From positions 114,281 to 178,280 of the IMG/VR virus record IMGVR_UViG_3300032046_000003: a stretch of 64,000 bases of DNA. One strand, 5' to 3'. Source of the stretch: a virus. The translations under genes and the position numbers were made by a program. A model generated the notes under the pieces. It was not told where the DNA came from. It did not search any database and saw nothing but the letters and a program-made list of their open reading frames with translations. Position 1 is the first letter of the stretch. Each line of letters opens with the position of its first letter. This document shows positions 5,349-62,477 of the stretch, in pieces.

Positions 5349-5377
5349 TTCAAGTTTCTTTTAATATGCATTATAAT
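5349..5377 (+). promoter_or_regulatory. Promoter, TTCAAG class
   Basis: AG-TTCAAG-TT at 5349-5354, 17 bp ending ATGCAT, TATAAT at 5372-5377. It lies directly behind the terminator. Confidence 0.8.
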
Positions 5378-5408
5378 ATAATTATAGAGAATGTTAAAGG
5401 AGATTAAA

Positions 5409-5594
5409 ATGAATAGGATAGATGAAAAAAACTTGATAATGGAAGACTTAAGAAGAGCAGTAGAAAATCTACGGTCGGTTGAAAAAAAGAAAAAATTTAA
5501 AAGTGACGTAGATGAACTCGATCATAAGGCGTCATTAGAACATGCAAAATTTAGAGTATCATATCTTAGAAAGCAATTAGAGGAGGCAAGTTAA
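5409..5594 (+). CDS. Small coiled-coil protein
   Basis: 61 aa from ATG 5409 behind AAAGGAG. Almost the whole protein is charged heptad-like helix (EDLRRAVENLRSVEKKKKF, then FRVSYLRKQLEEA). It has no recognisable family. The next gene begins at the base after its stop codon. Confidence 0.65.
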   Translation: MNRIDEKNLIMEDLRRAVENLRSVEKKKKFKSDVDELDHKASLEHAKFRVSYLRKQLEEAS

Positions 5595-32304: not shown

Positions 32305-33015
32305 ATGCCTACGGGAATTTATATAAGGACTAAAAAACATAATAAAAATATTTCAAAAACACTAAAAAAGACTTGGGTTAAAATAAAAAATAGCGCCTGT
32401 ACTTTAAATAGAAATAAAAAAATAAGTAAGGCTAATAAAGGCAGGCTTTCTCCTAAAAAAAATAAAAATTATGAGGAATTTTATGGGATAAAAAGATCTA
32501 AAGAAATAAAAATAAAACAGAGTAAAGCTAAAAAAGGTAAAATATTTTCGCAGCAACATTGTAAAAATATAAGCATCTCTCAAAGTGGATTAAATAAGAA
32601 TAAGACTTATGAAGAAAGATTGGGAGCGGAAAAAGCAAAAAAATGTAAAATAAAACAAAGGCTAAAAGCTATACAAAGAATAGAGAATAATTATGGCAAA
32701 TGTGAACCTAATTATAATTTAAAAGCCTGTAAAGTATTAAGACAATTTGATAAAATTAACAATACAAAAGGTCAATATGCAGTTTATGGTGACGGAGAGT
32801 ATTTAATAAAAGGCTTACATTATTTCCTTGATTATATAAATTTCGATAAGAAATTAATTATAGAAATTGATGAGAAACATCACTTTGATAAATTTGATAA
32901 TTTAAAACTAAAAGATATTGAAAGACAACAGGAAATTCAAAAAATTTACCCAGATTTCAAATTTCTAAGATTTAAAGATAAAGAAATGGATAAAATTTTG
33001 GAGATAAAAATATGA
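32305..33015 (+). CDS. Free-standing homing endonuclease, same family (diverged copy)
   Basis: 236 aa. Start MPTGIYIRTKKHNKNISK, then repeats of the form KNYEEFYGIKRSKEIKIKQS and NKTYEERLGAEKAKKCKIKQ, a shared GQYAVYGDGEYLIKGL block and the centre DYINFDKKLIIEIDEKHHFD. It ends with the family's DIERQQEIQKIYPDFKFLRF. It is the most divergent of the family members in this window and sits between two unknown genes. Confidence 0.82.
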   Translation: MPTGIYIRTKKHNKNISKTLKKTWVKIKNSACTLNRNKKISKANKGRLSPKKNKNYEEFYGIKRSKEIKIKQSKAKKGKIFSQQHCKNISISQSGLNKNKTYEERLGAEKAKKCKIKQRLKAIQRIENNYGKCEPNYNLKACKVLRQFDKINNTKGQYAVYGDGEYLIKGLHYFLDYINFDKKLIIEIDEKHHFDKFDNLKLKDIERQQEIQKIYPDFKFLRFKDKEMDKILEIKI

Positions 33016-33438: not shown

Positions 33439-34173
33439 ATGCCCAAAGGAATATATATACGAACTAAACAAAATATTGAAAATTTAAGTAAGGTGCATAA
33501 AAATTTACCAAGTCCAATGCTGGGTAAACATCACACTAAAAACGCCAAAAAACTACAAAGTAAATTTAGAAAAAACAAGACCTATGAAGAGATTTATGGG
33601 GTAAAAAATGCCAAAGAACAAAGAAAAATAAAGGTTAGGGCTATATTAGGAAATAAAAATCCTATGAAAAATCCAAATATTGCATTAAAAGTTAGTTTAT
33701 CACTTAAGAATAGAAAATTAACTGAAGAACATAAAAACAGTTTAAGCGAATCTCATAAAGGAATAAAATATTCAAAAGAACGAAATAAAAAAATAAGTAA
33801 AAAAAATAAAATTATTTTAAATACGCCAGAAATTAAAGCAAAAATACGTCAAAAAGCTGTTCAAAGAATACTTTTAAACAATGGTTATTTTCCATCTTAC
33901 AGTAAACAACAAGTAGAGTTTTTTAAAAGTTATGATAAACAACACAACACTAATGGTCAATATGCAACAAACCCACATGAGCATTATATTAAAGAGCTTG
34001 GTTATTGGCCAGATTATATCAATTTTGATAAGAAACTTATAATGGAATATGATGAAAAACATCATTACAATAAAAATGATAAACTTAAAAAAGAAGACAT
34101 AATTCGACAAAAAGAAATTCAAGATTTTTATCCAGAATTTAAATTCATAAGAATAAAGGAGAACGCTATATGA
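33439..34173 (+). CDS. Free-standing homing endonuclease, same family
   Basis: 244 aa. MPKGIYIRTKQN start; NUMOD3-like NPMKNPNIALKVSLSLKNRK and HKNSLSESHKG; then QKAVQRILLNNGYFPSYSK and ELGYWPDYINFDKKLIMEYD with EKHHYN. Very close to the copies at 28549 and 35879 over the last 110 residues, which points to recent duplication. Stop overlaps rmlA as ATGA. Confidence 0.84.
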   Translation: MPKGIYIRTKQNIENLSKVHKNLPSPMLGKHHTKNAKKLQSKFRKNKTYEEIYGVKNAKEQRKIKVRAILGNKNPMKNPNIALKVSLSLKNRKLTEEHKNSLSESHKGIKYSKERNKKISKKNKIILNTPEIKAKIRQKAVQRILLNNGYFPSYSKQQVEFFKSYDKQHNTNGQYATNPHEHYIKELGYWPDYINFDKKLIMEYDEKHHYNKNDKLKKEDIIRQKEIQDFYPEFKFIRIKENAI

Positions 34174-34937: not shown

Positions 34938-35886
34938 TATACTCATAACAGGCGGCTGCGGATTTATAGGCAGCAATTTTATTAAACATATCATGGATAA
35001 AAAAGATTTCAATTTGTTAATCAACGTGGATAAGCTAACATACGCCGGCTCAATGTTGAATGTTGTTGATTTAAATCTAGACACAAATCATGTATTTATT
35101 AAGACGGATATAAACGATAAAGCGGCGATCAAATACATTTTGGACAATTACAATATAGACTATATTGTTAATTTTGCGGCCGAAAGTCATGTTGATAGAA
35201 GCATTGAAGATAGCGATGCATTTATGCATTCTAACATATTAGGCGTAAAAAATCTTTTGGATTGTTGTAGAGAATATGGCAAGCTTAAATTATTTATTCA
35301 AATATCGACAGATGAGGTTTACGGGAGCGCCAAACCGGGGCAATCATTTAAAGAGGACGCTTCATTTAATCCAGGTTCGCCCTATGCGGCATCAAAAGCG
35401 GCCGCCGAGATGATATGCAAGGCGTATGCTAATACTTACAAAATACCCATAACTATCACAAGGTGCAGCAATAATTACGGTCCAAAGCAATACCCTGAAA
35501 AATTGATACCAGTGGTTATAAGCAAGGCTTTAAATAACGAGAAGATCCCGGTGTATGGAGACGGAAAGAACGAGAGAGAGTGGATTTATGTTGACGACCA
35601 CTGCGAGGCGATATACCAGATAATAAAGAACAATATCATTAATAAAATATACAATATATCTAGTAAGCATAAAATGAGCAATTTAAGTTTGATTAAAATT
35701 ATACTTAATAAACTTGATAAAAAAACCAATTTAATAGAATTTGTAGCTGATAGATTAGGACATGATAGAATATATTCTATCAATTCTAATAAGATACGAA
35801 AAGAACTTAAGTGGAAACCAACAACTAATTTTTATGATGGTTTATCGACAACAATTAGATGGTATAGGGAGAGATATAATGCCTAA
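34930..35886 (+). CDS. rmlB: dTDP-glucose 4,6-dehydratase
   Basis: 318 aa extended SDR. GGCGFIGSNF (NAD binding), STDEVYG with the catalytic Asp-Glu, and YAASKAAAE (YxxxK). RPERYNYGP-type TRCSNNYGPKQYPEKLIP follows. It converts dTDP-glucose to dTDP-4-keto-6-deoxyglucose. Directly coupled to rmlA. The last 40 codons are more AT-rich, next to an inserted endonuclease gene. Confidence 0.92.
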   Translation: MHNILITGGCGFIGSNFIKHIMDKKDFNLLINVDKLTYAGSMLNVVDLNLDTNHVFIKTDINDKAAIKYILDNYNIDYIVNFAAESHVDRSIEDSDAFMHSNILGVKNLLDCCREYGKLKLFIQISTDEVYGSAKPGQSFKEDASFNPGSPYAASKAAAEMICKAYANTYKIPITITRCSNNYGPKQYPEKLIPVVISKALNNEKIPVYGDGKNEREWIYVDDHCEAIYQIIKNNIINKIYNISSKHKMSNLSLIKIILNKLDKKTNLIEFVADRLGHDRIYSINSNKIRKELKWKPTTNFYDGLSTTIRWYRERYNA

Positions 35887-36631
35887 AAAAGGATATAAGC
35901 AAACAGAATTACATAGAAAAAATACGAGCATATCTATGAAAGGTAAAAGACATGATTCACCTATAAAAGATATGACTTATGAACAAAAATATGGAGTTGA
36001 TAAGGCTAAAGAAATTAAAACAAAGCAAAGTAGAAGCAGAAAATATATAAAGTTCTCAGAACAATGGTGCGAAAATATAAGCAAAGCCAAAAAAGGTCTA
36101 AATAAAAATAAGACTTACAGCGAAATGTATGGTATTGAAAAAGCACAAGAAATTAGAAAAAAACAAAGTAAAGCTCTTAAAAATAAACATTATAAAGATA
36201 AAACTTATGAAGAGAGATATGGAATTGAAACTGCTAAAAAATTAATAAAAAAATTGAGTGAAGCAAAAAAAGGTAAAAACCAAACAGAATCTGCAAAAAT
36301 AAAAACTAGACAAAAAGCAGTAGAAAGAGTCTTATTAAACAATGGTAAATTCCCTTCTTACAGCAAAGAACAAGTTGAATATTTTAAAAACTATGATATT
36401 AAAAACAATACTAATGGACAATACGCAACTAATCCTCACGAATATTACATTAAAGAATTAGGTTATTGGCCAGATTATATAGATTTTAATAATAATCTTA
36501 TTATGGAATACGATGAAAAACATCATAGTAAACCTAAAAATAAATCTAAAGACGTAATTCGTCAAAAAGAGATTCAGCAATTATATCCAGATTTTAAATT
36601 TATAAGAATAGGAGATAATAATCATGTCTAA
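35879..36631 (+). CDS. Free-standing homing endonuclease, same family
   Basis: 250 aa from ATG 35879, which overlaps the end of rmlB by 8 bases; an in-frame ATG at 35762 would lie inside rmlB and is rejected. MPKKGYKQTELHRKNTS start, three NKTYEExYGIEKAxEIxxKQ repeats, then QKAVERVLLNNGKFPSYSK and ELGYWPDYIDFNNNLIMEYD. It ends KDVIRQKEIQQLYPDFKFIR. Confidence 0.84.
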   Translation: MPKKGYKQTELHRKNTSISMKGKRHDSPIKDMTYEQKYGVDKAKEIKTKQSRSRKYIKFSEQWCENISKAKKGLNKNKTYSEMYGIEKAQEIRKKQSKALKNKHYKDKTYEERYGIETAKKLIKKLSEAKKGKNQTESAKIKTRQKAVERVLLNNGKFPSYSKEQVEYFKNYDIKNNTNGQYATNPHEYYIKELGYWPDYIDFNNNLIMEYDEKHHSKPKNKSKDVIRQKEIQQLYPDFKFIRIGDNNHV

Positions 36632-40555: not shown

Positions 40556-40756
40556 ATGAAAAAGCAAAAAATTAAGATTAAAGATTTGCCAGAAGATTTT
40601 GATATGATCGGGTGTAAGTTAAAAGGTAAATATATTTATAGCGGTTGGAATAAAGGGTTTTGGATGAAAAAGAAGATGAGCGATACTGAAATGTTTCCTT
40701 TGTTTTTTAAAAGTTTTGATGATATTAAGAATTGGGAGATAGAAATAATAAAATGA
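40556..40756 (+). CDS. Small basic protein, unknown function
   Basis: 66 aa. It starts KKQKIKIKDLPEDFDMIGCK and has a Trp-rich middle (YSGWNKGFWMKKKM). Stop overlaps the nrdD start as ATGA. Confidence 0.5.
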   Translation: MKKQKIKIKDLPEDFDMIGCKLKGKYIYSGWNKGFWMKKKMSDTEMFPLFFKSFDDIKNWEIEIIK

Positions 40757-42957
40757 CCAAGAAAAAAATTAAAGTAATAACAAAACAATCTAAAGCAGAT
40801 ACTACTGACAAATCACTTAATGTAGAATCTTTTTCTACTTATGAAATGATAACTGAGTGGGATAAATCTAGAGTCGCTGATAGTCTGCAAAAAGAAGCCG
40901 GAGTGACTGAAAAATTAGCAAAAGATATAGCAAACGCGGTAGAGAACAAATTATTAAAACTCGAGATTGAAAGCATTTCAACAGAATTCATCAGGTCTTT
41001 GGTTGATGAGGAATTGCTTATAAGGGGCGAAAAGAAAAAGCTCCAAAAACAAAAAGCATTAATTATACCCACTTATGATTTAGAGCAAGTATTGTTCGAT
41101 AAAACTAATGAGAATAGTAATGTTCAATCAAATAGTCCCGAGGCAGTAAACATGTTTATAGCCGAGTCTATATTAAAACAATATGCTCTTAACCGAGTAT
41201 TTTCTACTGAGGTCGCCAATTCACATCTGAACGGAGAAATACATCTACACGATTTAGGGTATATTGACAGGGTATACAGTCTAGACGGGTTAAATAGTAC
41301 CATAGAGATTAAAAGTGGCATAAATGGGCCATCTAGAAAAATTTGTATGAAAAATTTATATGATGTTATATGCGAAGAGGAATTATATGATCCAGAATTA
41401 GATGCACATATAAAATATCCCAAAGATTTATTTATTAGGGATAAAAATGAATGGGTGGAGCTAAAAAAAGTATTAAAACACAAAACAGATAAGAAAATTT
41501 TAAAAATAGACACAACAGAAGGGGATAGCCTATGGGTTACAGAAGATCATCCTTGCATAATTTTAGAAAATGAAATAGAGATTACAAAACAGGCAAAAGA
41601 TTTAAAAGAGAACGATATATTGTTAAAAATTATATTAATAAATGCGTCAGAAAGGTTAAAAGTGTTTATGCAACAAGTTAAAATAAAAAAAATACAAAAA
41701 GTAATTAATTCAAGCGATTTTGTTTATGACGTAACTACAAAATCAGGAACGTTTATATGCAATAACTTATTAATTCACAACTGTTCATCTCATTCATTAG
41801 AATACATAAAGAAATATGGATTAAGTTTGCAGAATCTGTCAACAAAATCGTCACCTGCGAAATATGCTTTAACGTTAACAGGTCATTTAAATACTTTCCT
41901 AGCTTCAATGCAGGCTTTTTATGCAGGAGCCCTAGGAATAAGCTACGTGAATATATTTTATGCTCCGTTTTTATTAGGAATGACTAAAAAAGAATTAAAG
42001 CAACAGGCTCAATACCTTATATTTTCATGTTCTCAAAATGCTTTTAGCAGGGGAGGGCAGACTTTATTTATAGACTTTAATATACATTTAGGAGTACCTA
42101 GCATATTAGCAGATGTTCCAACAATAGGTCAAAATGGTAAATATATTACTGAATTAATAATCGATGGTATGGAACCATCAGAACAAAGAAGAGAAAACAA
42201 GGAATTCAGAGAATCTTTATGGATATTGACTAAAGAAAGAGACGAATTGACGCATGAGAAAATATTACAATATTATGAGTTATTTCCGCTAGAATATGAA
42301 GGCAAGAAAATAATAGAATACATAAGACTTAGAGCTTATCATACAAGGCAATTAACATATAAAGATTTTGAGAAAAAATCTCAAGAATTTGCTCAAGCCT
42401 TAATGGAAGTATGGCACGAGGGCGATTCTAATCACGGAGTATTCCCATTTCCTAAATTTGACCTACATGTTAATGAAGAGTGCTTTACTGATGAAACTCA
42501 AAAAAAACTAATGGAATATGCCTGCGAGTTGTCGGCAGACAAAGGAATAACATATTTCTTCTTTGATAGGTCAGAGGCTCAATTGGCGCAATGCATTTCT
42601 GGTAATTCATTGATCAAGATTAATAATAAAAAAGTACAAATTGAAGATTTATTTGAAAAATTAAGTAAAAATGTCGAAAAAAGACAAGATGGCTCTGAAG
42701 TTATAAAAATTAAAAATATAAAAATTGATGATTTTGATATAAAAAATAACAAAAAAGAGAATGTAAATATGAATGCATTGATGAGAAAAAAATATAAAGG
42801 TAATATTATTAAAACAATGATTAATAATAAAGAATTAATTTGTACGCCCGATCATAAATTTACTGTTAAATGTAAAAAAAATAATGAGTTAATTGAAATA
42901 ACTGCAGAAAAATTATATGAAAATAAAGATTTATATTTAATCCCAATGGAGAATTAA
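40753..42957 (+). CDS. nrdD: Anaerobic ribonucleotide reductase NrdD, N-terminal part with one cis intein and an N-terminal half-intein
   Basis: From ATG 40753. Residues 1-175: an ATP-cone (SFSTYEMITEWDKSRVADSL) and the N-terminal NrdD part up to HLHDLGYIDRVY. Then a 168-residue cis intein (41278-41781). Next the central NrdD barrel (CSSHSLEYIKKYGL, FSRGGQTLFIDFNIHLGVP), ending FFDRSEAQLAQ. The last 121 residues are the N-half of a second, split intein beginning CISGN. The rest of NrdD is made from 43939 onward and must be joined in trans. Class III reductase makes dNTPs without oxygen, using a glycyl radical. Confidence 0.93.
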   Translation: MTKKKIKVITKQSKADTTDKSLNVESFSTYEMITEWDKSRVADSLQKEAGVTEKLAKDIANAVENKLLKLEIESISTEFIRSLVDEELLIRGEKKKLQKQKALIIPTYDLEQVLFDKTNENSNVQSNSPEAVNMFIAESILKQYALNRVFSTEVANSHLNGEIHLHDLGYIDRVYSLDGLNSTIEIKSGINGPSRKICMKNLYDVICEEELYDPELDAHIKYPKDLFIRDKNEWVELKKVLKHKTDKKILKIDTTEGDSLWVTEDHPCIILENEIEITKQAKDLKENDILLKIILINASERLKVFMQQVKIKKIQKVINSSDFVYDVTTKSGTFICNNLLIHNCSSHSLEYIKKYGLSLQNLSTKSSPAKYALTLTGHLNTFLASMQAFYAGALGISYVNIFYAPFLLGMTKKELKQQAQYLIFSCSQNAFSRGGQTLFIDFNIHLGVPSILADVPTIGQNGKYITELIIDGMEPSEQRRENKEFRESLWILTKERDELTHEKILQYYELFPLEYEGKKIIEYIRLRAYHTRQLTYKDFEKKSQEFAQALMEVWHEGDSNHGVFPFPKFDLHVNEECFTDETQKKLMEYACELSADKGITYFFFDRSEAQLAQCISGNSLIKINNKKVQIEDLFEKLSKNVEKRQDGSEVIKIKNIKIDDFDIKNNKKENVNMNALMRKKYKGNIIKTMINNKELICTPDHKFTVKCKKNNELIEITAEKLYENKDLYLIPMEN
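41278..41781 (+). mobile_element. Cis-splicing mini-intein in NrdD
   Basis: 168 residues, first residue Ser (SLDGLNSTIEI), last two His-Asn, followed by extein Cys (CSSHSLEYIKKYG). Block B is TEDHPCII (TxxH); blocks F and G are VYDVTTKSGTFICNNLLIHN. There is no endonuclease domain. Removing it rejoins IDRVY to CSSHSLEY, the normal NrdD sequence. The +1 cysteine appears to be the conserved NrdD active-site-region cysteine after HxHD. Confidence 0.9.
42592..42954 (+). mobile_element. N-terminal half of a split intein (NrdD)
   Basis: 121 residues starting CISGNSLIKINNKKVQIEDL, with block B CTPDHKFTV (TxxH). It ends with a stop codon at 42955. Its partner is the 38-residue C-half at 43939. The junction in the host protein is AQ / CCRLR. 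Confidence 0.9.
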
Positions 42958-42962
42958 TAAAA

Positions 42963-43934
42963 ATGTGTAAAAATATGATTAAAAATAAAAAAGGTAGACC
43001 TAAAATAGAAAGACAGTTTAAAACATGTAAATGTGGTAAAAATTTCGAATGTAGGATAACAGAAAATAGGAAATATTGTTCATTAATATGTTGGTATAAA
43101 TTTGGCGATAAAACTAAAGAAAATAATCCAGCATGGAAAGAAAGGGAAACTCACTATTGTCAATGTGGTTGTAATGAAATATTTGAAACAATAATAACAT
43201 CTAAAAGAAGATTTATTAATGGTCATCAAATGAGAGGCATAAAGCGTAGCGATGTAACAAGAGCAAAATTAAGGGAAGCGGCTAAAGGAAGATTTACTTT
43301 AAAATGGTATATAGAAAGATATGGAGAAAATGAAGGTGAAAGGAAATACATAGAACGCAATAAAAAGACAGTTTCTAACAATTTAGAGGCATTAACAGTT
43401 AAATATGGGAAAGTTGTTGCTAAAGAAAAATTTGATAATTATCTCAAAAAATGGAAAAGACAATACATTGAAGAATTTTGGATTGAAAAATTTGGCGAAA
43501 AGATTGGTAAAGAAAAATATATTAAGAGAATGAATAAGCTTTTTCCCAATTGTTCATCAAAGATCTCTCAAGAATTATTTTTTAAATTATACAATAAATT
43601 AAATTTATCTAAATACAAATATGTTTATTTTGACAAATTAAATCATGAATTCTCATGTGGAACTAGATATAATTTTGATTTCGTAATAAATGATATTAAA
43701 AAGATAATTGAATTTAACGGTGATAAATTTCATGCTAATCCTTCTATTTATAAAGCTGAAGACGTTTCTAATCCATTTGAAAAATTAACAGCTAAAGAAA
43801 TTTGGGAAAATGATAGTATCAAAATAAATAAAGTTTTAAATAAGGGATATAAAGTACTTGTTATTTGGGAAAGTGATTATTATAAAAATAAAGAAAAAAC
43901 TTTTAAAAAATGTAAAGAATTTTTAGAGGAGTAA
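42963..43934 (+). CDS. Free-standing homing endonuclease between split-intein halves (Vsr/EDxHD-like)
   Basis: 323 aa. N-terminal zinc fingers (CKCGKNFEC, CSLICW; CQCGCNEIF), a middle of repeated helical segments (WYIERYGENEGERKYIERNK, IEKFGEKIGKEKYIKR), and the C-terminal nuclease: YNFDFVINDIKKIIEFNGDK, FHANP, then IWENDSIKINKVLNKGYKVL and VIWESDYY. This matches the endonuclease family known from fractured, split-intein genes, whose core resembles Vsr mismatch endonuclease. It ends with AGAGGAG, the ribosome site for the next fragment. Confidence 0.88.
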   Translation: MCKNMIKNKKGRPKIERQFKTCKCGKNFECRITENRKYCSLICWYKFGDKTKENNPAWKERETHYCQCGCNEIFETIITSKRRFINGHQMRGIKRSDVTRAKLREAAKGRFTLKWYIERYGENEGERKYIERNKKTVSNNLEALTVKYGKVVAKEKFDNYLKKWKRQYIEEFWIEKFGEKIGKEKYIKRMNKLFPNCSSKISQELFFKLYNKLNLSKYKYVYFDKLNHEFSCGTRYNFDFVINDIKKIIEFNGDKFHANPSIYKAEDVSNPFEKLTAKEIWENDSIKINKVLNKGYKVLVIWESDYYKNKEKTFKKCKEFLEE

Positions 43935-43938
43935 AAAA

Positions 43939-44052
43939 ATGAAATTTCGTGAAATAGATGATATAAAAATAGAAAAATATGATGGATATGTTTATGATTT
44001 AGAAACAGAAAAATATAATCATTATGCTGCAAATGATTTTATAATACATAAT
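43939..44052 (+). mobile_element. C-terminal half of the split intein (NrdD)
   Basis: 38 residues: YDGYVYDLETEKYNHYAAND (block F) then FIIHN and extein Cys (block G). Has its own ATG and ribosome site. Confidence 0.9.
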
Positions 44053-44895
44053 TGCTGTCGTCTTCGAGAAACTATAACAGATATGACTATGGTTAAAAAT
44101 CCTGAAAGTTTGAGATTTTGTGGGTTCCAAAACGTGACTATTAATCTTCCGCAAGCTGCTTATAGGGGTAAGGGTGATTTTAATAAAACTGTAGATGAAA
44201 TAATCTGGGCAATGAAAATAGCTATGAAAGCCCATCTGCAGAAAAAGAAGTTTATACAAAGTTTAATGGACGATGAAAATAAACCTCTTTGGCAAGTAGG
44301 AAAACCATCTGAAGACGGAAAACCATATATCGACTTAGAAAAGTCAACATATATTATAGGAATGCTAGGATTAAATGAGTGCGTTCAAAGAATAATGGGA
44401 AAACAGTTGCATGAATCGGATGATGCGTTGAATATGGGTATAAAAATAGTCGCTCATATGTATTCCGAATGTAAAGAATTTGCCAAAGAATATAAATTAA
44501 AAGTCGTATTAGAAGAATCTCCTGCAGAAAGTGCGGCAGCTAGATTGGCTAAAATAGACTTGAATAAATTTCCAGAGGCTAAAAAGTATATTAAAGGCAA
44601 TAAAGATAACGGAGATGTATATTATACGAATTCTACTCATTTTACCGCAGATGCAGATATTGATATATTAGACAGGATAGACAAACAATCTAAATTCAAT
44701 CAACTTATAGAGGCAGGAGCCATAACGCATGTTTTCTTAGGAGAGCAAAGGCCCACAAAAGAAGCAGTATTTAATTTGGTAGAAAAGACATGGAGAAATA
44801 CTCAATCAGCTCAATTAACGTTAAGTCCTGAATTGATAATATGTCATGATTGCGGAAGGGTGACCAGAGGCTTTTCTCAAGTTGAAGATGAATAG
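43939..44895 (+). CDS. nrdD: C-half-intein plus C-terminal part of NrdD, lacking the glycyl-radical domain
   Basis: 318 aa. Residues 1-38 are the intein C-half ending AANDFIIHN; the NrdD extein starts at CCRLRETITDMT. It includes NLPQAAYRGKGDF, IGMLGLNECVQ, YYTNSTHFTADADIDILDRI and HVFLGEQRPTKEA, all NrdD. It ends after CHDCGRVTRGFSQVEDE, where NrdD proteins would go on to a second CxxC and the RVxGY glycyl-radical loop. Those parts are encoded separately at 45324. Confidence 0.92.
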   Translation: MKFREIDDIKIEKYDGYVYDLETEKYNHYAANDFIIHNCCRLRETITDMTMVKNPESLRFCGFQNVTINLPQAAYRGKGDFNKTVDEIIWAMKIAMKAHLQKKKFIQSLMDDENKPLWQVGKPSEDGKPYIDLEKSTYIIGMLGLNECVQRIMGKQLHESDDALNMGIKIVAHMYSECKEFAKEYKLKVVLEESPAESAAARLAKIDLNKFPEAKKYIKGNKDNGDVYYTNSTHFTADADIDILDRIDKQSKFNQLIEAGAITHVFLGEQRPTKEAVFNLVEKTWRNTQSAQLTLSPELIICHDCGRVTRGFSQVEDE

Positions 44896-46234: not shown

Positions 46235-46594
46235 ATGGATATAAGAGGCTGGCATAAAGTGAGCTTACTGGATTATCCAGACAAGGTAAGCACATTAATT
46301 TTCACTTATGGATGCAATAGAAGGTGTCCATATTGTGTGTCAAACGACACTAAAATAACTTTAAAAAATGGTAAAACAAAAAGAGCCGATTTAATTAATG
46401 TGGGAGATATTTTAAAAACACCTTTCGGAAAAACCAAAGTTACGACTTATATAGAAGACATAAAAGAACTTTATGAGATTAAATTTAAAGGTGGTAAAAA
46501 AATTAAAGTAGGCAAAAATCATTTATTTATGAGTGAAAAGAATTTAAAAAAAGTAAAGAATTTAAAAATAGGGGATATAATTTATGGTGTGTAA
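46235..46594 (+). CDS. nrdG: NrdG activase, first 33 residues, plus N-half of a split intein
   Basis: 119 aa. Residues 1-33 are the N-terminus of an anaerobic reductase activating protein (WHKVSLLDYPDKVSTLIFTY, then GCNRRCPY). Cys-34 begins the intein half, CVSNDTKITLKNGKTKRADL. So only two of the three radical-SAM cysteines are in this extein. The third comes from the C-extein after splicing. NrdG uses S-adenosylmethionine and a 4Fe-4S cluster to make the NrdD glycyl radical. Confidence 0.9.
   Translation: MDIRGWHKVSLLDYPDKVSTLIFTYGCNRRCPYCVSNDTKITLKNGKTKRADLINVGDILKTPFGKTKVTTYIEDIKELYEIKFKGGKKIKVGKNHLFMSEKNLKKVKNLKIGDIIYGV
46334..46591 (+). mobile_element. N-terminal half of a split intein (NrdG)
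   Basis: 86 residues from CVSNDTKIT to GDIIYGV; block B is VGKNHLFM (GxxH). A different intein from that in NrdD. The next gene starts inside its last codons. Confidence 0.85.
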
Positions 46595-47372
46595 TTTAAA
46601 TAATAGCTTAAGAATGAAATTAAACAATCCAATGAAAAATAAATTAATTGTTAAAAAAGTTATGAACACTAAAAAAATAAATCATGTTTATGAAAAAATG
46701 GCTAAGAATGCCATAGGAAAAAAAATGTTAAAAGAATCAATTTTAAAAAGACAGAAAACTTATTATAAGAACAATCAGCATATTAAATCTTCTAATAGAA
46801 TGAAGATTAATAATCCAATGTTCAGAGTTAATATTAAACAAAAGATGAAAAATACATTTAAAAATAAAACTTTCAAAGAAAGAGAAATTATTAATAATAA
46901 GATTTTAGAAACCAAAAATAAAACTGGATGCTATAAAAATATGTCCAAAAATATGAAAAAAAATAATCCTATGTTTAATGAAAATACAGTTAAAAAGATG
47001 GTCAAAACTATGTATGAGCTTTGGCCAAATAAAAAAAGTGGATTAGAAAAAAAATATGAGAAAATATTTTATATATTAGATAAAAAAATTGAATTTGTAG
47101 GTAATGGTTCAGTTTGGATTAAAAGACAAAACCCTGATTTTATATTGAGAAGTAAAAAGAAAGTTATTGAAATGACTTCACATTGGTTTTATAGAACTAA
47201 AAATAATTATGCCATTAATAGAATAAAAAAATATAATGAATGTAATTGGAATTGTCTAGTCATTTTCATAGATAAGGATAAATTTAATGATAGCTTAAGA
47301 TTACAAATACTAGATTATTTAAAACATGATTATTCAGGGGTAATAGAATATGGCAAACTTGAAAAAATATAA
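46584..47372 (+). CDS. Free-standing endonuclease between NrdG intein halves
   Basis: 262 aa, very Lys/Asn-rich. NUMOD3-like repeats with NPM cores (MKLNNPMKNK, MKINNPMFRVNIKQKMKNTF, MKKNNPMFNENTVKKMVKTM). C-terminal nuclease: SGLEKKYEKIFYILDKKIEF, then KRQNPDFILRSKKKVIEMTS-HWFY and CLVIFIDKDK. The PDFI...KVIEM centre resembles the same Vsr-like or PD-(D/E)xK family as other endonucleases here. It overlaps the intein N-half gene by 11 bases and the C-half gene by 23. Confidence 0.82.
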   Translation: MVCNLNNSLRMKLNNPMKNKLIVKKVMNTKKINHVYEKMAKNAIGKKMLKESILKRQKTYYKNNQHIKSSNRMKINNPMFRVNIKQKMKNTFKNKTFKEREIINNKILETKNKTGCYKNMSKNMKKNNPMFNENTVKKMVKTMYELWPNKKSGLEKKYEKIFYILDKKIEFVGNGSVWIKRQNPDFILRSKKKVIEMTSHWFYRTKNNYAINRIKKYNECNWNCLVIFIDKDKFNDSLRLQILDYLKHDYSGVIEYGKLEKI

Positions 47373-48054
47373 AATTTTGAGTATAAAAAAAATAGGATAT
47401 GACAAAGTTATAGATTTTTCATGTGAACCAATACCATATTATATATCTAATAATATGATTTCGCATAATTGTCATAATCCAAAATTAGTCTTAGTGAGAA
47501 ACAAATGGAAATTGACTGAAAGAATAAAAGAAGACAAAATCATAAATTTCATTAAGAGTAAAAACAAGACTAAAAAATGGGTGGATGCTATTTCCATATG
47601 TGGCGGTGAGCCTACGACCCAATGGAGTTTGATCAAGTTCTGCGAGAAGATAAAAAAAGAATTAGGAATACTTATTAAGGTTGATACAAATGGAACTAAC
47701 CCCAGAATGCTCAGAAAATTAATAAGTAGGAAATTGGTTGATTACGTGGCAATGGATGTTAAAGTGGATTTATTCAATAGGCGGAACTATAATCTCAGCA
47801 TCAAGCTAGTAAAGAAGATGAAAAATTATGAATTTCGTTTGACAGCGGTTCCAACATTGGTTAAAGACGACAATATAGAACAAATAGCAGAAAAGTTCAA
47901 AGGAGCCAAGAGGTTCTATATTCAGCAGTTCAACAACAAGGTTAATATGCTGAATAACAAATATAAGGATATAAAGCCTTATAAGCGGGCGACATTGGAA
48001 GAATGGTGCAAGAAAATCAAGAAAAATTTTGATAGATGCGAGGTGCGCGCGTAA
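47350..48054 (+). CDS. nrdG: C-half-intein plus main body of NrdG
   Basis: 234 aa. Residues 1-40 are the intein C-half (KVIDFSCEPIPYYISNNMIS then HN, 47350-47469). The extein begins CHNPKLVLVRNKW, giving the third cysteine of CxxxCxxC when joined to the N-extein (CNRRCPY+CHNP). AISICGGEPTTQWSLIKFC (GGEPT SAM site) and KVDTNGTNP follow. Combined exteins make 227 aa, the size of an NrdG2-type activase. Neither half alone could bind the cluster. Confidence 0.92.
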   Translation: MANLKKYKILSIKKIGYDKVIDFSCEPIPYYISNNMISHNCHNPKLVLVRNKWKLTERIKEDKIINFIKSKNKTKKWVDAISICGGEPTTQWSLIKFCEKIKKELGILIKVDTNGTNPRMLRKLISRKLVDYVAMDVKVDLFNRRNYNLSIKLVKKMKNYEFRLTAVPTLVKDDNIEQIAEKFKGAKRFYIQQFNNKVNMLNNKYKDIKPYKRATLEEWCKKIKKNFDRCEVRA

Positions 48055-51750: not shown

Positions 51751-52032
51751 ACTGATGTGAACATAATAGACTATACATTGTCCAGGGAACTGGACAAGAT
51801 TAAAAGGAAGCGTCGATCAGCTGAAAGAGATTTAGCAGATATTAAATCCAGATATGAATTAGCTTCGGTTGAAGTTGAATATTATAATCATTGTGAAAAA
51901 GAAATTCTTGAGAAGTTAGATAGTAAATACATAAAAAAAATGAGCGAGCCTGAATTCGAAAGAGTCAGAAGAGCCAAATATAATAGTTCGGTCAAATATA
52001 GACGTAATGGAATTACGGAGGAAAGTATATGA
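51727..52032 (+). CDS. Charged coiled-coil protein before clpC
   Basis: 101 aa. Basic and acidic helix ([40 protein letters not shown]). Alternative ATG at 51739. Overlaps the clpC start by four bases. It could be an adaptor for the unfoldase, but this is only position-based. Confidence 0.5.
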
Positions 52033-54548
52033 TATGTGAAGATTGCCGTCAAAATGAAGCGACATTTGAAGCCATATTTAATATAAATGGCGCCAGGCGC
52101 GTTAAAAATATATGTGATGTATGCTATAACAAATATCAACTAAGCAACGACGAACAAGTTAAAGAAATTTATAACAAATTAAGCGACGCCACCAAGAAGT
52201 CTATTTATTATGCAAGGAGAGAGGCTAAGAACAGAAGGCATAAATATGTCACCGAATACCATTTATTATACGGAATCGTTCTCGAGCAAGGCAGCACATA
52301 TAACACTTTAATAAGCATCGGCGTGAATATTGATAGTTTAAAACAAAAAATAGATTGGGCTTTAACTGCTGTTGCTGATTTAGTTGATAGGGGTAGTCAA
52401 GTTGAACCACTTTTATCAGTTGAAGTAGCCAATACATTAAAAGCCAGTGTCAATATAATAAATAAAATAGAGTTTCCAGAAGTGGAGCCTGAACATATTC
52501 TAATAGCAATCTTGGAACAAAGAGACAGCGAATTGTGTAGAGTGCTGAAACAGCAATTTGGATTAGACATAATTAAGATATTGGAGGAAATAGAGGCTCA
52601 ATTACCCGGCGATATTGACCTAGTTAGAAAATATAAAGAAAATGATTCTAAGAAAACAGCATTAGAAAAGTACAGCAGGAATCTGACTAAAATGGCCAAA
52701 GCCGATGAACTCGATCCTTGTATAGGTAGAACCTTAGAAATAGAGAGAATGATACACATATTGTCTAGAAGGACCAAGAACAACCCTGTGCTGGTCGGAG
52801 AAGCCGGTGTTGGTAAAACTGCAATAGTAGAGGGATTGGCAAGAAAAATAGTTGAAGGTGATGTACCTGAAAACATATTAAATAAGCAAGTCTTAGCGCT
52901 GGACTTAAACTCGATGGTGGCGGGAACTAGGTTTAGAGGAGAGTTTGAAGAGAGAATAAAGGCTGTTCTCGATGAGGTAAAATCTCGCTCAAGAGAGGTT
53001 ATTCTTTTCATAGACGAATTGCATACGTTGATAGGCGCAGGTTCGGCTCAAGGAAGCATGGACGCCGCCAATATATTGAAACCCATGTTGGCGAGAGGGG
53101 AATTACAATGTATAGGAGCAACAACTCGAGAAGAATACAGCCAACATATAGAAAATGACAAGGCGCTAGAAAGAAGATTCCAACTTATTGACGTTTCAGA
53201 ACCTACGGTAGACGAGGCAAAAGAAATCTTAAAAGGCGTAAAATATAGATATGATAATTTTCACAATGTGAATATAAGCAACGAGGCTATTGACGCGGCC
53301 GTTGAAATGTCAACTAAATTCATAGCCAACAGATTCTTGCCGGATAAAGCAATAGATTTGATGGACGAGGCCAGTGCTAAGGTAAAATTAAGCAAGTTGG
53401 AATTACCAGAAGACATTAAATCCCTTAAAAAGCAAATAGCGCTAGATAAGAAAAATAAAAAAGATACTGTAAAAGAAGAAAAACTGCTTAATCAGAAACT
53501 CGAAAAAAGAACAGAGGACAATAGCAAAATAGTTCTAAATGTCGAGAAAAACGACATAGCGCAAGTGGTTAGCAGATGGACTAAAATACCCGCAACTGAA
53601 CTATTGAAGGAAGAGAAAACTAAACTATTGCATTTAGAAGATAAGCTGCACGAGAAAATCATAGGTCAAGACCAGGCAATAAAGGCGCTTTGCAATTCGA
53701 TACGAAGATCGAGAGTCGGTATAAACGACCACAACAAGCCAATAGGCTCTTTCATATTTGCCGGTAAGACCGGAGTGGGTAAAACTTTAGTGGCCAAAAC
53801 ACTAGCCGAATATCTATTTGATTCTCCCGAGCACTTTATAAAAATTGACATGTCAGAGTATCAAGAAAAACATACAGTTTCTAGACTAATAGGAGCGCCT
53901 CCAGGATATATTGGATTTGAGCAAGGCGGGCAATTAATAGAACACTTAAGAAGGCACCCTTATTCAGTTATATTGTTAGATGAAATTGAAAAAGCTCATC
54001 CAGACATATTTAACGTATTATTGCAAGTGACTGAAGACGGGGTAATAACTGATGGCAGAGGAAGAAAAGCCGATTGTAGGAATTCCATCATAATAATGAC
54101 TTCAAACATAGGGGCGTTAAAAAAGGACATTATAGGGTTTAATGCAAAGATCGAAACTAAAGACGAATATGAGAGGCTTAGAACAGCTACAGAGAATGCC
54201 ATGAAGGAGTTTTTTAAGCCTGAATTCTTGAACAGGATAGACGACGTCATAGTATTCCACAATCTGGAAGAGGACGACATGTATAAGATAGTAGAATTGA
54301 TGATAAACGACTTGTCTGCAAGAATGAAAAAGCAAGAGCTCAATATAAAGATAGACCAAGACGTCAAGAAGTTGTTGGTGGAATCTGGATTTGACAAAGA
54401 ATATGGCGCTAGAAGTTTGAAGAAATTCATAGTTCGCAGGATAGAAAATCCATTGGCTGAAGAGATGCTTAAGGACAAATTTAAGCCTAATGACACTATA
54501 TTAATTACTAAAGAAAAGAAAGAAATAATTTTTGAAGTAGAAAAATGA
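52029..54548 (+). CDS. clpC: ClpC-type AAA+ unfoldase with N-terminal McsA-like zinc finger
   Basis: 839 aa. Residues 1-36: [20 protein letters not shown] then CDVCYNK, a zinc finger of the kind at the start of McsA. Then a Clp N-domain, D1 ([17 protein letters not shown]), a short ClpC-type middle region, and D2 ([25 protein letters not shown]). DIIGFNAK contains the IGF loop by which Clp ATPases dock ClpP, so it may feed host ClpP. No clpP is in the window. It lies just after the E1-like gene. Confidence 0.92.
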
Positions 54549-55013: not shown

Positions 55014-56201
55014 ATGAACGTATTTGATTATGGAGTTGACTTATCAGGTGTTTGTGATAAATGTAATAAAAAAATAATAATGGGTATATGCGCTTGTGAA
55101 AAGACAAATAGAAAATTAGCTTCTATACAAAAAATATTAGCAGTTGAACCCATAGAAGGAGCTGACAACATAGAGAAGGTTAAGGTTCTTGGGTGGCAAG
55201 TAGTGGTGAAAAAAGGAGAATTTAAACCAGGAGATTTATGCGTATTTTTTGAAATAGACTCATTTTTGCCCATAAGAGAAGAGTTTGAATTCTTAAGAAA
55301 ATCTAGTTATCGCCTTTTAGAAGATGGCAAAGAAGGATTTAGATTAAAGAGTTGCAAGCTCAGGAAGACTTTATCTCAAGGACTTGTAATGCCGCTATCT
55401 ATTTTAGATGGAAAATTAACTTTTTCAGCACCTTCTGGTTTAGAATTAGGAAAAATGATGGAAATGGCAATAGACAAAGTATTAAGTGCAGAAGAAGGAT
55501 TAGATGTTACAGAAATATTAGGCATTACAAAATATGAGATAGCAATTCCCGTCCAACTGAAAGGAATTTTAGAGGGGAAATTTCCTACAGAAATAATACC
55601 CAAGACAGACGAGATACGCATCCAGTCGGAACCCGGTCTTATTGAGGAAATGAAAGGCAAGGAATATTACATCACTGTCAAGGTAGACGGAACAAGCGCC
55701 ACATTTTATAAGCACAACGATAAGTTTGGTGTATGCGGCAGAAATTGGGAACATAAATTAGAGTCCCAAAACGCTTATATGCAAATAGCACAGAAATACG
55801 ATTTACAGAATAAGCTGAATGCACTGGGTAAGAACTTGGCGATACAAGGGGAAATCGCAGGGCTTGGCATACAGAAGAATCCTTTGGGACTTAAAGAATT
55901 AGAATTATTTGTGTTTTCTATATATGATATAGATAATAGAAAATATTTGGATTTAGAGGAATTTTTAAATACAGCAAGAGAATTAAATCTTAGAACAGTT
56001 CCATTTGAAGGAAGAGATTTGGATTTTGATTATATAATGGAAGAACTTATTGAAAAAGCTAAAGGTAAATATGTAGGGACACAGAAAAACCGAGAAGGCA
56101 TAGTTATAAGACCGATAAAGGAAACATATTCAGAGTTATTGAAAGGGAGATTATCATTTAAGGTTGTTAATGATGATTATTTACTTAAGGATGAAGAATA
56201 G
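55014..56201 (+). CDS. RNA ligase, DRB0094/Rnl5-like
   Basis: 395 aa behind AGGAGG. An N-terminal zinc-like part (CDKCNKKIIMGICAC), an OB-fold domain (LASIQKILAVEPIEGADNIE, KGEFKPGDLCVFFEIDS), then the nucleotidyltransferase domain: ITVKVDGTSATFY (motif I, Lys of KVDG), GEIAGLGIQ, EGIVIRPIKE (motif IV) and LSFKVVNDDY (motif V). This is the plan of the Deinococcus-type RNA ligase family. With the HAD phosphatase and the CCA enzyme it could form a tRNA repair set against host anticodon nucleases. Confidence 0.88.
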   Translation: MNVFDYGVDLSGVCDKCNKKIIMGICACEKTNRKLASIQKILAVEPIEGADNIEKVKVLGWQVVVKKGEFKPGDLCVFFEIDSFLPIREEFEFLRKSSYRLLEDGKEGFRLKSCKLRKTLSQGLVMPLSILDGKLTFSAPSGLELGKMMEMAIDKVLSAEEGLDVTEILGITKYEIAIPVQLKGILEGKFPTEIIPKTDEIRIQSEPGLIEEMKGKEYYITVKVDGTSATFYKHNDKFGVCGRNWEHKLESQNAYMQIAQKYDLQNKLNALGKNLAIQGEIAGLGIQKNPLGLKELELFVFSIYDIDNRKYLDLEEFLNTARELNLRTVPFEGRDLDFDYIMEELIEKAKGKYVGTQKNREGIVIRPIKETYSELLKGRLSFKVVNDDYLLKDEE

Positions 56202-56391: not shown

Positions 56392-56459
56392 GCCGGGATA
56401 GCTGAGATTAGCGCAACCCTGAAAAGGTTGAGACAATGGTGCGATACCATTTCCTGACA
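56392..56459 (+). tRNA. Degenerate tRNA-Phe-like element (GAA)
   Basis: Anticodon arm CAACC-CTGAAAA-GGTTG (anticodon GAA), T-arm AATGG-TGCGATA-CCATT, acceptor GCCGGGA/TCCTGAC with one C-A mismatch. The D-arm is reduced to GCT-GAGATT-AGC without the GG of normal D loops, and the T-loop is TGC instead of TTC. 68 nt, no CCA. It may be decaying or a phage-divergent tRNA. It lies 3 nt before tRNA-Gln. Confidence 0.5.
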
Positions 56460-56462
56460 CAT

Positions 56463-56533
56463 TCCAGGGTCGGCTAATGGTAGGCCAGCGGGCTTTGAAC
56501 CCGTTAACGGAGGTTCGAATCCTTCCCCTGGAG
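56463..56533 (+). tRNA. tRNA-Gln (anticodon TTG)
   Basis: Acceptor TCCAGGG/CCCTGGA, D-arm GGCT-AATGGTA-GGCC, anticodon arm GCGGG-CTTTGAA-CCCGT (TTG at 56495-56497), T-arm GGAGG-TTCGAAT-CCTTC, discriminator G. No CCA is encoded. A promoter begins at the next base. Confidence 0.92.
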
Positions 56534-56562
56534 TTCAAGTTCGCTGAAAAGTGCATTATAAT
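56534..56562 (+). promoter_or_regulatory. Promoter, TTCAAG class
   Basis: TTCAAG at 56534-56539, abutting the tRNA-Gln 3' end, 17 bp ending GTGCAT, TATAAT at 56557-56562. Confidence 0.82.
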
Positions 56563-57678: not shown

Positions 57679-58209
57679 ATGAAATGGAATGAAACAATAG
57701 CAAGTCAATGTAGATACGGCGATATAGCTGGACAAGTATGGGGCAAGTGGGATATTATCTGGGAGGACAGTTCGGCTGATTATCAAGGTCATGCAACTAT
57801 TTTGGCTAAAAAGGGTAAAAAATATTGCTTCTATGAGTGGCATTACGGTTCGTGCTCAGGTTGCGATGGATGGGAAGCTGACGGAAAGACTGGCGACGAA
57901 ATAGAAAAAGAGATGCGAGACACAGCGATGTGGCTTGATAATAAAGCACAACTCAAAAAGTGGCTAAACATGCTTGAAGGCGACCCTAGAAGTAATGCTA
58001 GCATGGAAAGAGGCGGAGGTCTTGCATATGGAATAGATTTTCTAAGTGGAGGCTTAATAGACAGGATAAATGCCATTAGAAAAGAACTTAAAATGCCCGA
58101 GCTTAAAAAAGAAGATTTTGATCCTTCAGAAGTAAGCTCGTGTGAAAGCTGTTTTTGTATGACTCACGCTATTAATGGTAAATGCGGAAAATGTGGAGCT
58201 GTTAAATAG
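57679..58209 (+). CDS. Zinc-site protein, unknown function
   Basis: 176 aa. N-terminal beta-rich domain with GHATILAKKGKKYCFYEWHY and CSGC; C-terminal CESCFCMTHAINGKCGKCG, a compact zinc knuckle. The function is unknown. Its stop codon forms the first bases of the structured RNA that follows. Confidence 0.6.
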   Translation: MKWNETIASQCRYGDIAGQVWGKWDIIWEDSSADYQGHATILAKKGKKYCFYEWHYGSCSGCDGWEADGKTGDEIEKEMRDTAMWLDNKAQLKKWLNMLEGDPRSNASMERGGGLAYGIDFLSGGLIDRINAIRKELKMPELKKEDFDPSEVSSCESCFCMTHAINGKCGKCGAVK

Positions 58210-58397
58210 GCTGGTGCCAAAGTTGGGGTTTGAAGCCGCAGTTATATGCGAATTGTATATAACTCATAAGACTATCTTCGAACACACCAAGCCAAGCTGT
58301 CAGGAGCAATTTGCGGTTGAAAAATAGGCGTTATTTAGATTAAGGGTTAGTCGACTTGATTGAATAAGGACATTTTCAACAACGGACAGTCAGCCTA
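58207..58397 (+). ncRNA. Structured RNA of about 190 nt, family not recognised
   Basis: Nested helices: closing stem TAGGCTG (58207-58213) with CAGCCTA (58391-58397); hairpin AGTTATAT/ATATAACT (58240-58264); CTGTC/GACAG (58297-58301 with 58385-58389); GTTGAAAA/TTTTCAAC (58316-58323 with 58373-58380); TTATT/AATAA and ATTAAG/CTTGAT further in. A competing helix pairs GGCTGGTG (58209-58216) with CACC-A-AGCC (58285-58293). No coding frame with a ribosome site is present. It could be a stand-alone RNA or a leader of the next gene. Confidence 0.62.
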
Positions 58398-58427
58398 GTT
58401 TGCAATGTGTTCAATAGAGGTGATAAT

Positions 58428-58877
58428 ATGAAATGGTTATGGAAGAATTTTCGAAAAATTATAAGAGATAATTTCTGGCTGATAGCGTTTGTTATAATAA
58501 TCGGCATACATCAAGCTCAATATGCCTCTTTAATGTCTAGAATTGACATGTGGGAAGCTGAAATGGGATTTTCTCAAGCAACAGGGTGGATTAATGTAGT
58601 TGCGTCTTATTTCGGTAAAGGTGATGGTTTAGAAAAAGCAATTATGTATAGCGGGACCAGAGTCAATGACAAAACATTATTCTTTGCCTCAAGACATGTT
58701 CCTATGGGGACAAAGGCAATGTTTTATAATCCTAAGACCAAAAAATATGCCGTAGGAATATGCTTGGACTGGGGGCCGAATGCAAGGTTGAAAAGAGATG
58801 TGGACTTGGGACCTGCATTATCAGATAGACTCGGATTCAAAGGGGTTTATGCTATAAGAATGAAGGTACTGAGATAA
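58428..58877 (+). CDS. RlpA-like double-psi beta-barrel protein, membrane-anchored
   Basis: 149 aa from ATG 58428 behind GAGGTGATA. One membrane span near the N-terminus (NFWLIAFVIIIGIHQ). The domain VVASYFGKGDGLEKAIMYSG, FFASRHVPMGTKAMFYNPKT, then GICLDWGPNARLKRDVDLGP follows the RlpA pattern (ASyYG, AHr-lPfGt, DrGP, iDls). RlpA-like domains bind or cut glycan strands. A role in host envelope breakdown is likely. Confidence 0.78.
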   Translation: MKWLWKNFRKIIRDNFWLIAFVIIIGIHQAQYASLMSRIDMWEAEMGFSQATGWINVVASYFGKGDGLEKAIMYSGTRVNDKTLFFASRHVPMGTKAMFYNPKTKKYAVGICLDWGPNARLKRDVDLGPALSDRLGFKGVYAIRMKVLR

Positions 58878-58890
58878 GGGAGGTAAAAGA

Positions 58891-59235
58891 ATGAGAGCTA
58901 GAATACTCTGCTTCTTTATGGGGCATAAGTGGTGTGACCATAGATGTTTGCGGTGTGAGCAATGGCAGGAAACTAAAACCTGTAATACTTGGGGCGAAGA
59001 AACAGCAAGCATATTGGCACAACCCTTTTCAGAATCAGTAGGGGGGTTGAGTGCTGAGCAAATGGAAATTGTTGAGAGGCAAGCCCTCGCCATCAAGGAA
59101 GCAGGATATGTGAAGAGGGATTGGGTTATAGGGATAGTGGAGAAGGCAAAAAGGACATATTGCTTTAAGCCAATGAAAGGACTTGATGTATTTGACCAAG
59201 CAATAAAAGAAATACTGTGGGAGGTAAAAGAATGA
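58891..59235 (+). CDS. Zinc-motif protein, unknown function
   Basis: 114 aa. N-terminal CFFMGHKWCDHRCLRCEQW is a compact zinc cluster seen in small phage proteins that open with GHKW. The rest is helical. It starts behind GGGAGGTAAAAGA, a ribosome site repeated before four genes in a row. Stop overlaps the next ATG. Confidence 0.62.
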   Translation: MRARILCFFMGHKWCDHRCLRCEQWQETKTCNTWGEETASILAQPFSESVGGLSAEQMEIVERQALAIKEAGYVKRDWVIGIVEKAKRTYCFKPMKGLDVFDQAIKEILWEVKE

Positions 59236-59369
59236 AGTGTGACCATTGGGGATGGTTATACCCAAAGTTTATTAAAAGAAAGTTAAAAGTCTTGTGCTGT
59301 AGGTGTGATAAGTGGCTAACAAAAAAGGAAATAAAGAAATTATTGCCTGAATGGAAATTGGGGAGGTAA
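59232..59369 (+). CDS. Small zinc-like protein
   Basis: 45 aa. CDHWGW then LCCRCDKWLTKKE. It has the same ribosome-site cassette as the gene before. Function unknown. Confidence 0.6.
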   Translation: MKCDHWGWLYPKFIKRKLKVLCCRCDKWLTKKEIKKLLPEWKLGR

Positions 59370-59373
59370 AAGA

Positions 59374-59625
59374 ATGAAGTTAATACCGCCAGATAAAAAA
59401 CAATGTCAAGCTGAAAAGCCCTGTGGAACTAATTTTATGACATTAGGTGGACTCCCAGTAGGAACGCTTGTGAGATGTACAAACAAACCTACAGTTATAA
59501 TTACTGAAGCAAATAAAAACAAAAAAGATGGTAAAAAGGGAAGTATGGCATTATGTGATGATTGTCTTGGAGTAGCTTTAAAAGATTTTACTAAAAGGCA
59601 TTTTGTTATCAAGACTATAAAATAA
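59374..59625 (+). CDS. Small cysteine-containing protein
   Basis: 83 aa. Cys residues at QCQAEKPC, RCTNKP and LCDDCLG form a possible zinc site resembling small proteins with CxxxxxPA..-LCDDC. Third gene behind GGGAGGTAAAAGA. Confidence 0.6.
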   Translation: MKLIPPDKKQCQAEKPCGTNFMTLGGLPVGTLVRCTNKPTVIITEANKNKKDGKKGSMALCDDCLGVALKDFTKRHFVIKTIK

Positions 59626-59643
59626 AATGTGGGAGGTAAAAGA

Positions 59644-59757
59644 ATGAGAGAGATAAAGTTAGACAATCTTGCTATGTTTAATTGTGGTTGTTTAAGTCGG
59701 GCATTGGCAATCATAGATGCTCAGATAAAAGAATTGTCAAACAAAGGAAGTGAATAA
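59644..59757 (+). CDS. 37-residue peptide
   Basis: Fourth gene behind GGGAGGTAAAAGA. NLAMFNCGCLSRALAIIDAQ with a helical C-terminus. Function unknown. Confidence 0.5.
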   Translation: MREIKLDNLAMFNCGCLSRALAIIDAQIKELSNKGSE

Positions 59758-60746: not shown

Positions 60747-60830
60747 GTCGAAGTGGTGGAACTGGTAGACACAAGGGCCTTAAAAGCCCTCGTTCGTAAG
60801 GACATGCCGGTTCGATTCCGGCCTTCGACA
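60747..60830 (+). tRNA. tRNA-Leu (anticodon TAA)
   Basis: 84 nt with the long variable arm of class II tRNAs. Acceptor GTCGAAG/CTTCGAC, anticodon arm AGGGC-CTTAAAA-GCCCT (TAA at 60781-60783), T-arm GCCGG-TTCGATT-CCGGC, discriminator A, no CCA. UUA is a frequent Leu codon in this AT-rich window. Confidence 0.94.
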
Positions 60831-61551: not shown

Positions 61552-61900
61552 TTTACGTCAAGACGCCATGTTAACAGCAATAGAGAGGGATATTATGGAT
61601 AATAATGAAAGAGAAAACGAAGAATTTAGACAAAGAATGGAATTAAGACACAATTTGACAGGCATTGACGTGGTGGACAGGGACCCATATTACTTTGAAA
61701 CTACACAACGCAGGTCGGGATTAAGAATCTCAGGTTTTAGTTATCATCGCATTAAGTATTATGTTTTGAAAATGGAAGACGGGAATATCGAAGTTTTTGA
61801 TGCAAATTTGTTAATCGCAAAACAAGTTCCCAGCAAAAGCGAAATTTTCAAAAAAAGAAGCAAATTACTTAAGGAGGGTTTACTAGATGAAAGCCTATGA
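61511..61900 (+). CDS. Unknown protein
   Basis: 129 aa from ATG 61511 behind GAGGAGGAAG; ATG 61595 is an alternative. N-terminal acidic helices, then a beta segment (RIKYYVLKMEDGNIEVFDAN). No family recognised. Confidence 0.55.
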   Translation: MDSLRILLENLVNNLRQDAMLTAIERDIMDNNERENEEFRQRMELRHNLTGIDVVDRDPYYFETTQRRSGLRISGFSYHRIKYYVLKMEDGNIEVFDANLLIAKQVPSKSEIFKKRSKLLKEGLLDESL

Positions 61901-62477
61901 TTTTCCTATGAAAGATACTATCGACTTTGTAAGAAATAGCAATAAAATAGAGGGTATAGACTATGATTATGCCAAATATGAAGAGGCCATAAAATACCCC
62001 GAGACTGTTGATAATGATGAGATACAAGGTCATCTCCGCGCTTATGAGTATCTGGCTGTAAATTATAAAGATGATTTAACAGAAGAGCACATATTAGCGA
62101 TGCACAAACTACTGACCAAAGGATTGGTGGCCGATAAGCATAACGGCAAGTACAGAGACTGTCTCGTGTCTATTGGGGGCAGGATTGCGGAATTGCCCAT
62201 TGCAATAAGACCTAAAATGAGAGAATTAATTGTCATGGCTAAAAAAGTCAAAACAATTAAAGAAATATGGGCTATACATGATGAATTTGAAATTGTGCAT
62301 CCTTTTGTGGATGGTAATGGGCGCACAGGAAGACTTATTCTTAATTGGTTAATGTTAAAAAGTGATCATCCTTTATATATAGTCTATTTTGATAATAGAT
62401 ATGGCTATTATGAGAGAATAGAGCGGTATAGGCGTAAAAAATACGAAGTTTTTAGTTTAAAAAATTACGATAAATAA
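61887..62477 (+). CDS. Fic-domain AMP transferase
   Basis: 196 aa. Fic core HPFVDGNGRTGRLILNWL complete with catalytic His. An N-terminal inhibitory motif SNKIEG (S/T-xxx-E-G/N) is present, so activity is self-restrained (class II-like). Fic proteins transfer AMP or other groups to target proteins. In a phage it could modify host proteins or act in anti-defence. Confidence 0.9.
   Translation: MKAYDFPMKDTIDFVRNSNKIEGIDYDYAKYEEAIKYPETVDNDEIQGHLRAYEYLAVNYKDDLTEEHILAMHKLLTKGLVADKHNGKYRDCLVSIGGRIAELPIAIRPKMRELIVMAKKVKTIKEIWAIHDEFEIVHPFVDGNGRTGRLILNWLMLKSDHPLYIVYFDNRYGYYERIERYRRKKYEVFSLKNYDK

Follow-up and report, generated by a model that had tools for sequence, protein, structure and literature searches.

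A possible orphan structured RNA in an intercistronic gap of a large phage

The window analysed here is a 64-kb stretch, the final part (bases 114281-178280) of a 178,280-base IMG/VR phage record. Its genes are tightly packed and lie almost all on the + strand. Among the best matches listed in the phage collection the DnaE protein reaches at most ~35% identity, which places the phage among large phages without a close cultured relative. The candidate RNA is found in a gap on the coding strand between two same-strand genes, flanked by tRNA genes at distances of 1.7 kb (upstream) and 2.3 kb (downstream); all four tRNAs that ARAGORN finds in the window are ordinary. The locus has the following features, of which the ClpA-like and RNA ligase genes were named from sequence or family match.

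52029-54548: ClpA-like ATPase gene
55014-56201: RNA ligase gene
56392-56534, + strand: tRNA-Phe and tRNA-Gln (ARAGORN), upstream of the gap
57679-58209, + strand: upstream gene, 176 aa, Cys-rich motif at the C-terminus
58210-58427, + strand: intercistronic gap holding the candidate RNA, 218 nt, from the stop codon ending at 58209 to the ATG at 58428
58428-58877, + strand: downstream gene, 149 aa, membrane segment at the N-terminus
60747-60830, + strand: tRNA-Leu (ARAGORN), downstream of the gap

No Pfam family was found for the upstream gene, and the downstream gene gives a weak match to the phage lipoprotein A (RlpA)-like family phrog_7930. Behind it, at 58878-59650, stands a series of small ORFs, each with a near-identical leader (GGGAGGTAAAAGAATGA) ahead of it; these leaders look as if the ribosome site was duplicated together with the small ORFs. 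The 218 nt of the gap compare with at most 18 nt in the adjoining gene-to-gene gaps. The G+C content of the gap and of the candidate RNA is about 0.40-0.41, against 0.33 in the window and 0.26-0.37 in neighbouring spacers, and raised G+C in A+T-rich genomes is a criterion that published searches use for spacers bearing ncRNA (PMC8632094).

Does the gap conceal a gene of its own? With 106 long genes of this phage as its training set, a hexamer coding model assigns it scores of -0.32 to -0.80 in all six frames, while the 1st percentile of real genes lies at +0.35. A hidden protein was rejected, as the six frames score like off-frame sequence and 0/3 frame-derived peptides match PHROG. The original prediction had held that the region contains no ORF with a ribosome site. 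The hexamer scores bear this out in that there is no coding frame, but an AGGAG at 58302-58306 does stand ahead of an 8-codon TTG mini-ORF, where nothing gene-like is seen. The scan returned no terminator in the gap or at its ends and no convincing promoter, its sole hit being a weak resemblance to a promoter that overlaps the ribosome site of the downstream gene.

The candidate RNA was also described in the original prediction as neither a tRNA, a tmRNA nor a known riboswitch, with a comparison against Rfam proposed as a check, and this description agrees with both ARAGORN and Rfam. Rfam 15, whose families cover tRNA, tmRNA, 6S, RNase P, riboswitches, ribozymes, group I/II introns, ROOL and GOLLD, gives no match at the gathering threshold, and relaxing the cut-off to E <= 10 under permissive filters over 57900-58700 still brings up no family. 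A tRNA or tmRNA was rejected because ARAGORN (acceptor, T arm, anticodon or tag) finds none in the gap. A self-cleaving ribozyme, a group I intron and a tRNA-like structure were rejected by eye, their defining motifs being absent, as is any Rfam match.

Searches for relatives of the region were similarly negative. Against phages and plasmids blastn gives merely short chance matches (E 0.3-0.9), and neither the neighbouring proteins, used as bait in viral contigs, nor DnaE led to relatives. The RNA ligase retrieved 23 records in which DNA similarity never extends beyond 14-21 nt and no covariance-model match occurs, a ThiF-like protein retrieved eight further records with no RNA match, and a degenerate DNA pattern of two segments of the RNA found no match in viral contigs. 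ClpA retrieved only Clp proteins of bacterial genomes (42-51% identity) from genome contigs, and the covariance model R1 has no match in 398 genomes from the phylum of a clostridial genome. Overall, the searches by DNA, pattern, neighbouring genes and covariance model brought up no relatives among phages, plasmids, the 32 related virus records or 398 bacterial genomes; the model was built from a single sequence and would miss distant ones.

ClpA also led to the one true relative of the phage, the record IMGVR_UViG_3300018080_004265 (hereafter L040), whose ClpA is 67% identical and whose gene order is common to most of the window. Even with filters off, the covariance model finds no match to the candidate RNA in L040. 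Downstream of clpA this phage carries, at the syntenic place, a 12-tRNA array that contains a 285-nt non-coding segment (L040:13076-13360) with a G+C content of 0.45 against 0.31 for the L040 phage. This segment has no Rfam match, only short chance matches by blastn, and a fold z of -1.3; on composition, though, it makes a stronger case for an unknown phage ncRNA than the segment in the window does. The two resemble each other solely over 26 nt, in opposite orientation (22/26, shuffle p 0.003 over six tests), and from their sequences they are not detectably the same RNA.

The comparison with L040 extends to other parts of the window. The protein encoded at 61887-62477 belongs to the Fic/DOC family (Pfam E 3.9e-16) and its L040 counterpart is 51% identical. 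The regions 40732-44895 and 46235-48054 look like genes for an anaerobic ribonucleotide reductase and its activating enzyme, apparently interrupted by inteins with endonuclease ORFs; the HN|C junctions were judged by eye, and the parts flanking the putative inteins match adjacent places in L040. Four related endonuclease-like ORFs (28549-29229, 32305-33015, 33439-34173 and 35762-36631) are scattered in one region, have N-terminal repeats and the C-terminal half in common, and all match one L040 place.

The fold predicted for the segment 58207-58397 and its immediate downstream context comprises the following elements, with pairing probabilities given where they depend on context.

58207-58213, + strand: 5' strand, UAGGCUG, of the closing helix; it begins with the stop codon of the upstream gene
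58391-58397, + strand: 3' strand of the closing helix, CAGCCUA, pairing with 58207-58213
58228-58235 with 58276-58283, + strand: helix GUUUGAAG/CUUCGAAC, probability 0.98 alone and ~0.03 with the downstream leader
58240-58264, + strand: robust 10-bp hairpin AGUUAUAUGC/GUAUAUAACU, probability 0.91-0.99 in every context
58316-58380, + strand: robust long irregular hairpin, ~22 bp in three helices (58316-58323/58373-58380, 58331-58338/58360-58367 and 58340-58344/58355-58359), probability 0.87-0.97
58265-58287, + strand: segment of the alternative fold, predicted to pair with 58406-58430 and so to mask the downstream gene's ribosome site and AUG
58406-58430, + strand: downstream leader, Shine-Dalgarno sequence (AGAGGTG) and ATG, partner in the alternative fold

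On the + strand this 191-nt segment folds with -52.8 kcal/mol (z -2.93, 3/200 shuffles equally good; z -2.6 in an independent run of 400 shuffles), and it ranks in about the top 2% of 300 random 191-nt genome windows by both energy and z. The - strand has a z of about -0.34, no better than shuffles. Folding beyond shuffles that is specific to one strand and free of coding signal, as observed for 58207-58397, is a criterion for structured ncRNA. In one scan, however, 5/160 other windows of this sequence folded better, so that, given the range of windows open to choice, a z between -2.6 and -2.9 is not unusual. The strongest folding signal of the window scan is located elsewhere, at 5231-5420 (z -5.3), where the space between two genes contains a hairpin resembling a terminator and, after it, a promoter of the TATAAT type.

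These figures bring in the possibility that the gap is a spacer without function, left over from DNA that decayed or was acquired horizontally, its fold reflecting chance and slightly raised G+C in one window picked out of many. We consider this about a one-in-three proposition. It would account for other windows of the same phage folding equally well, for the lack of relatives in any collection searched and for the different content of the syntenic region in L040, but it sits less easily with the strand-specific energy, with a G+C content above that of neighbouring spacers and with the fact that so compact an operon has kept a gap of 218 nt.

The element on which the original prediction placed most weight, a 7-bp helix joining the two ends of the segment, is present as described, with further helices inside it; it is perfect over 7 bp and reaches 8 bp if one G-U is counted. 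As the helix that spans the region it holds for the isolated segment, with a probability of 0.87 for 58207-58397, but this falls to 0.01 when the 43 natural bases downstream (58398-58440) are included in the fold, because the downstream leader then pairs back upstream, masking the start codon and ribosome site of the downstream gene. Moreover, a perfect 7-bp helix arises between the outer 15 nt of each end in 0.7% of shuffles and between the outer 30 nt in 4.3%, figures that apply to ends picked after inspection. Both this chance level and the loss of the helix in context favour a functionless spacer. The competing pairing that was said to switch the 5' strand was not recovered; the internal competitor that we find, 58296-58301 with 58385-58390 (probability 0.17), rivals the 3' side of the closing helix. 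The main helices of the hairpins 58240-58264 and 58316-58380, by contrast with the closing helix, keep a probability of at least 0.91 with the same downstream bases added.

What could be the significance of the pairing that displaces the closing helix? Over 58207-58440 the state with the ribosome site hidden has an energy of -59.4 kcal/mol against -55.9 for the closed state. On the basis of these predicted folds, a regulatory switch operating through the 58265-58287/58406-58430 pairing is possible. Taken further, the segment might be a riboswitch-like or thermosensor leader of the RlpA-like gene, in which the closing helix together with the 58228/58283 helix would free the ribosome site and the alternative pairing would hide it. 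The ~3.5 kcal/mol advantage of the hidden state agrees with such a role, as does the predicted behaviour of the Shine-Dalgarno sequence and AUG, which are for the most part base-paired at 37 C and become accessible gradually as the temperature rises. Taken jointly, these two fall in the lowest 5% for accessibility among 116 phage genes, whereas singly the Shine-Dalgarno sequence is at the 30th and the AUG at the 15th percentile. The pairing itself is not clearly beyond chance, however, since 46% of shuffled downstream tails pair as stably as the natural one; 9% displace the closing helix as much (p 0.03-0.09 for helix displacement). Orphan riboswitch-type leaders that sequester the Shine-Dalgarno sequence resemble the candidate RNA in that an alternative pairing can cover this site and the AUG of the next gene, but here the segment begins at the upstream stop codon inside an operon and not at a transcript 5' end, the downstream gene is not evidently metabolic or transport, and no conserved aptamer is recognisable, as no homologue was found. 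We regard a sensing leader of this kind as improbable, at roughly one chance in ten.

The position of the gap raises another alternative, a discrete trans-acting phage RNA processed from the transcript of the tRNA region and trimmed to ~190 nt. ROOL and GOLLD RNAs often adjoin phage tRNA islands (PMC12286853), and the candidate RNA likewise has tRNA genes on both sides. The G+C-rich non-coding segment within the tRNA array of L040, after the same clpA gene, points in the same direction. ROOL and GOLLD, which occur in phages and prophages, are several hundred nt long, with many GOLLD above 800, and have elaborate conserved folds and Rfam models; the candidate RNA measures ~190 nt in its gap, matches no Rfam model and is unrelated to them in sequence. 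We know of no function for either ROOL or GOLLD. The proposal in the original prediction of a discrete RNA of ~190 nt bounded by the closing helix is not sustained, as the helix that would define its ends is weak once the flanks are folded and those ends have no convincing promoter or terminator. With the two phages' segments not detectably homologous by covariance model, and alike over one opposite-strand stretch only, we judge a discrete trans-acting RNA unlikely. More doubtful than any of these readings is that the window RNA and the L040 segment are diverged or functionally equivalent members of a new class of small structured phage RNA, which a family of large phages would keep in the tRNA regions that follow clpA. 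Both the discrete RNA and the ligand- or heat-sensing leader are less likely than a segment acting in cis or a functionless spacer.

We tentatively favour, at somewhat better than one chance in three, the reading that the segment is a structured, non-coding part of a polycistronic phage mRNA and acts in cis between the two cistrons. This reading draws on the strand-specific fold and its rank among genome windows, the non-coding hexamer bias, the long gap with raised G+C among short ones, the two context-stable hairpins, the low joint accessibility of the Shine-Dalgarno sequence and AUG, and the lack of a terminator or of more than a weak promoter-like match. It is weakened by the lack of a homologue and therefore of covariation, a z unexceptional among windows, tail pairing at chance level and the modest percentile of the AUG taken alone, and within error it is as likely as a spacer without RNA function. 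Composition, strand-specific energy, the missing coding signal and the missing Rfam match reasonably support the uncharacterised structured RNA of the original prediction, and an orphan structured intercistronic RNA outside known families is weakly supported.

How would such a segment work? The hairpins 58240-58264 and 58316-58380 might form a processing or stability element acting in cis between the two cistrons. Intercistronic hairpins with such roles are present in polycistronic phage mRNAs, as exemplified by the RNase III sites of T7, and the predicted long irregular hairpin 58316-58380 resembles them in its location between same-strand cistrons. The hairpins might also damp translation of the downstream RlpA-like gene, an idea suggested by the two pairing options of the remainder of the segment, with itself through the closing helix or with the ribosome site and AUG downstream.

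Within the viral messenger the candidate RNA is probably an element of modest importance. If it is a discrete RNA, it would enlarge the short list of structured RNAs known in large phages; if it is an intercistronic element, it would be one among many unremarkable features of compact phage operons.
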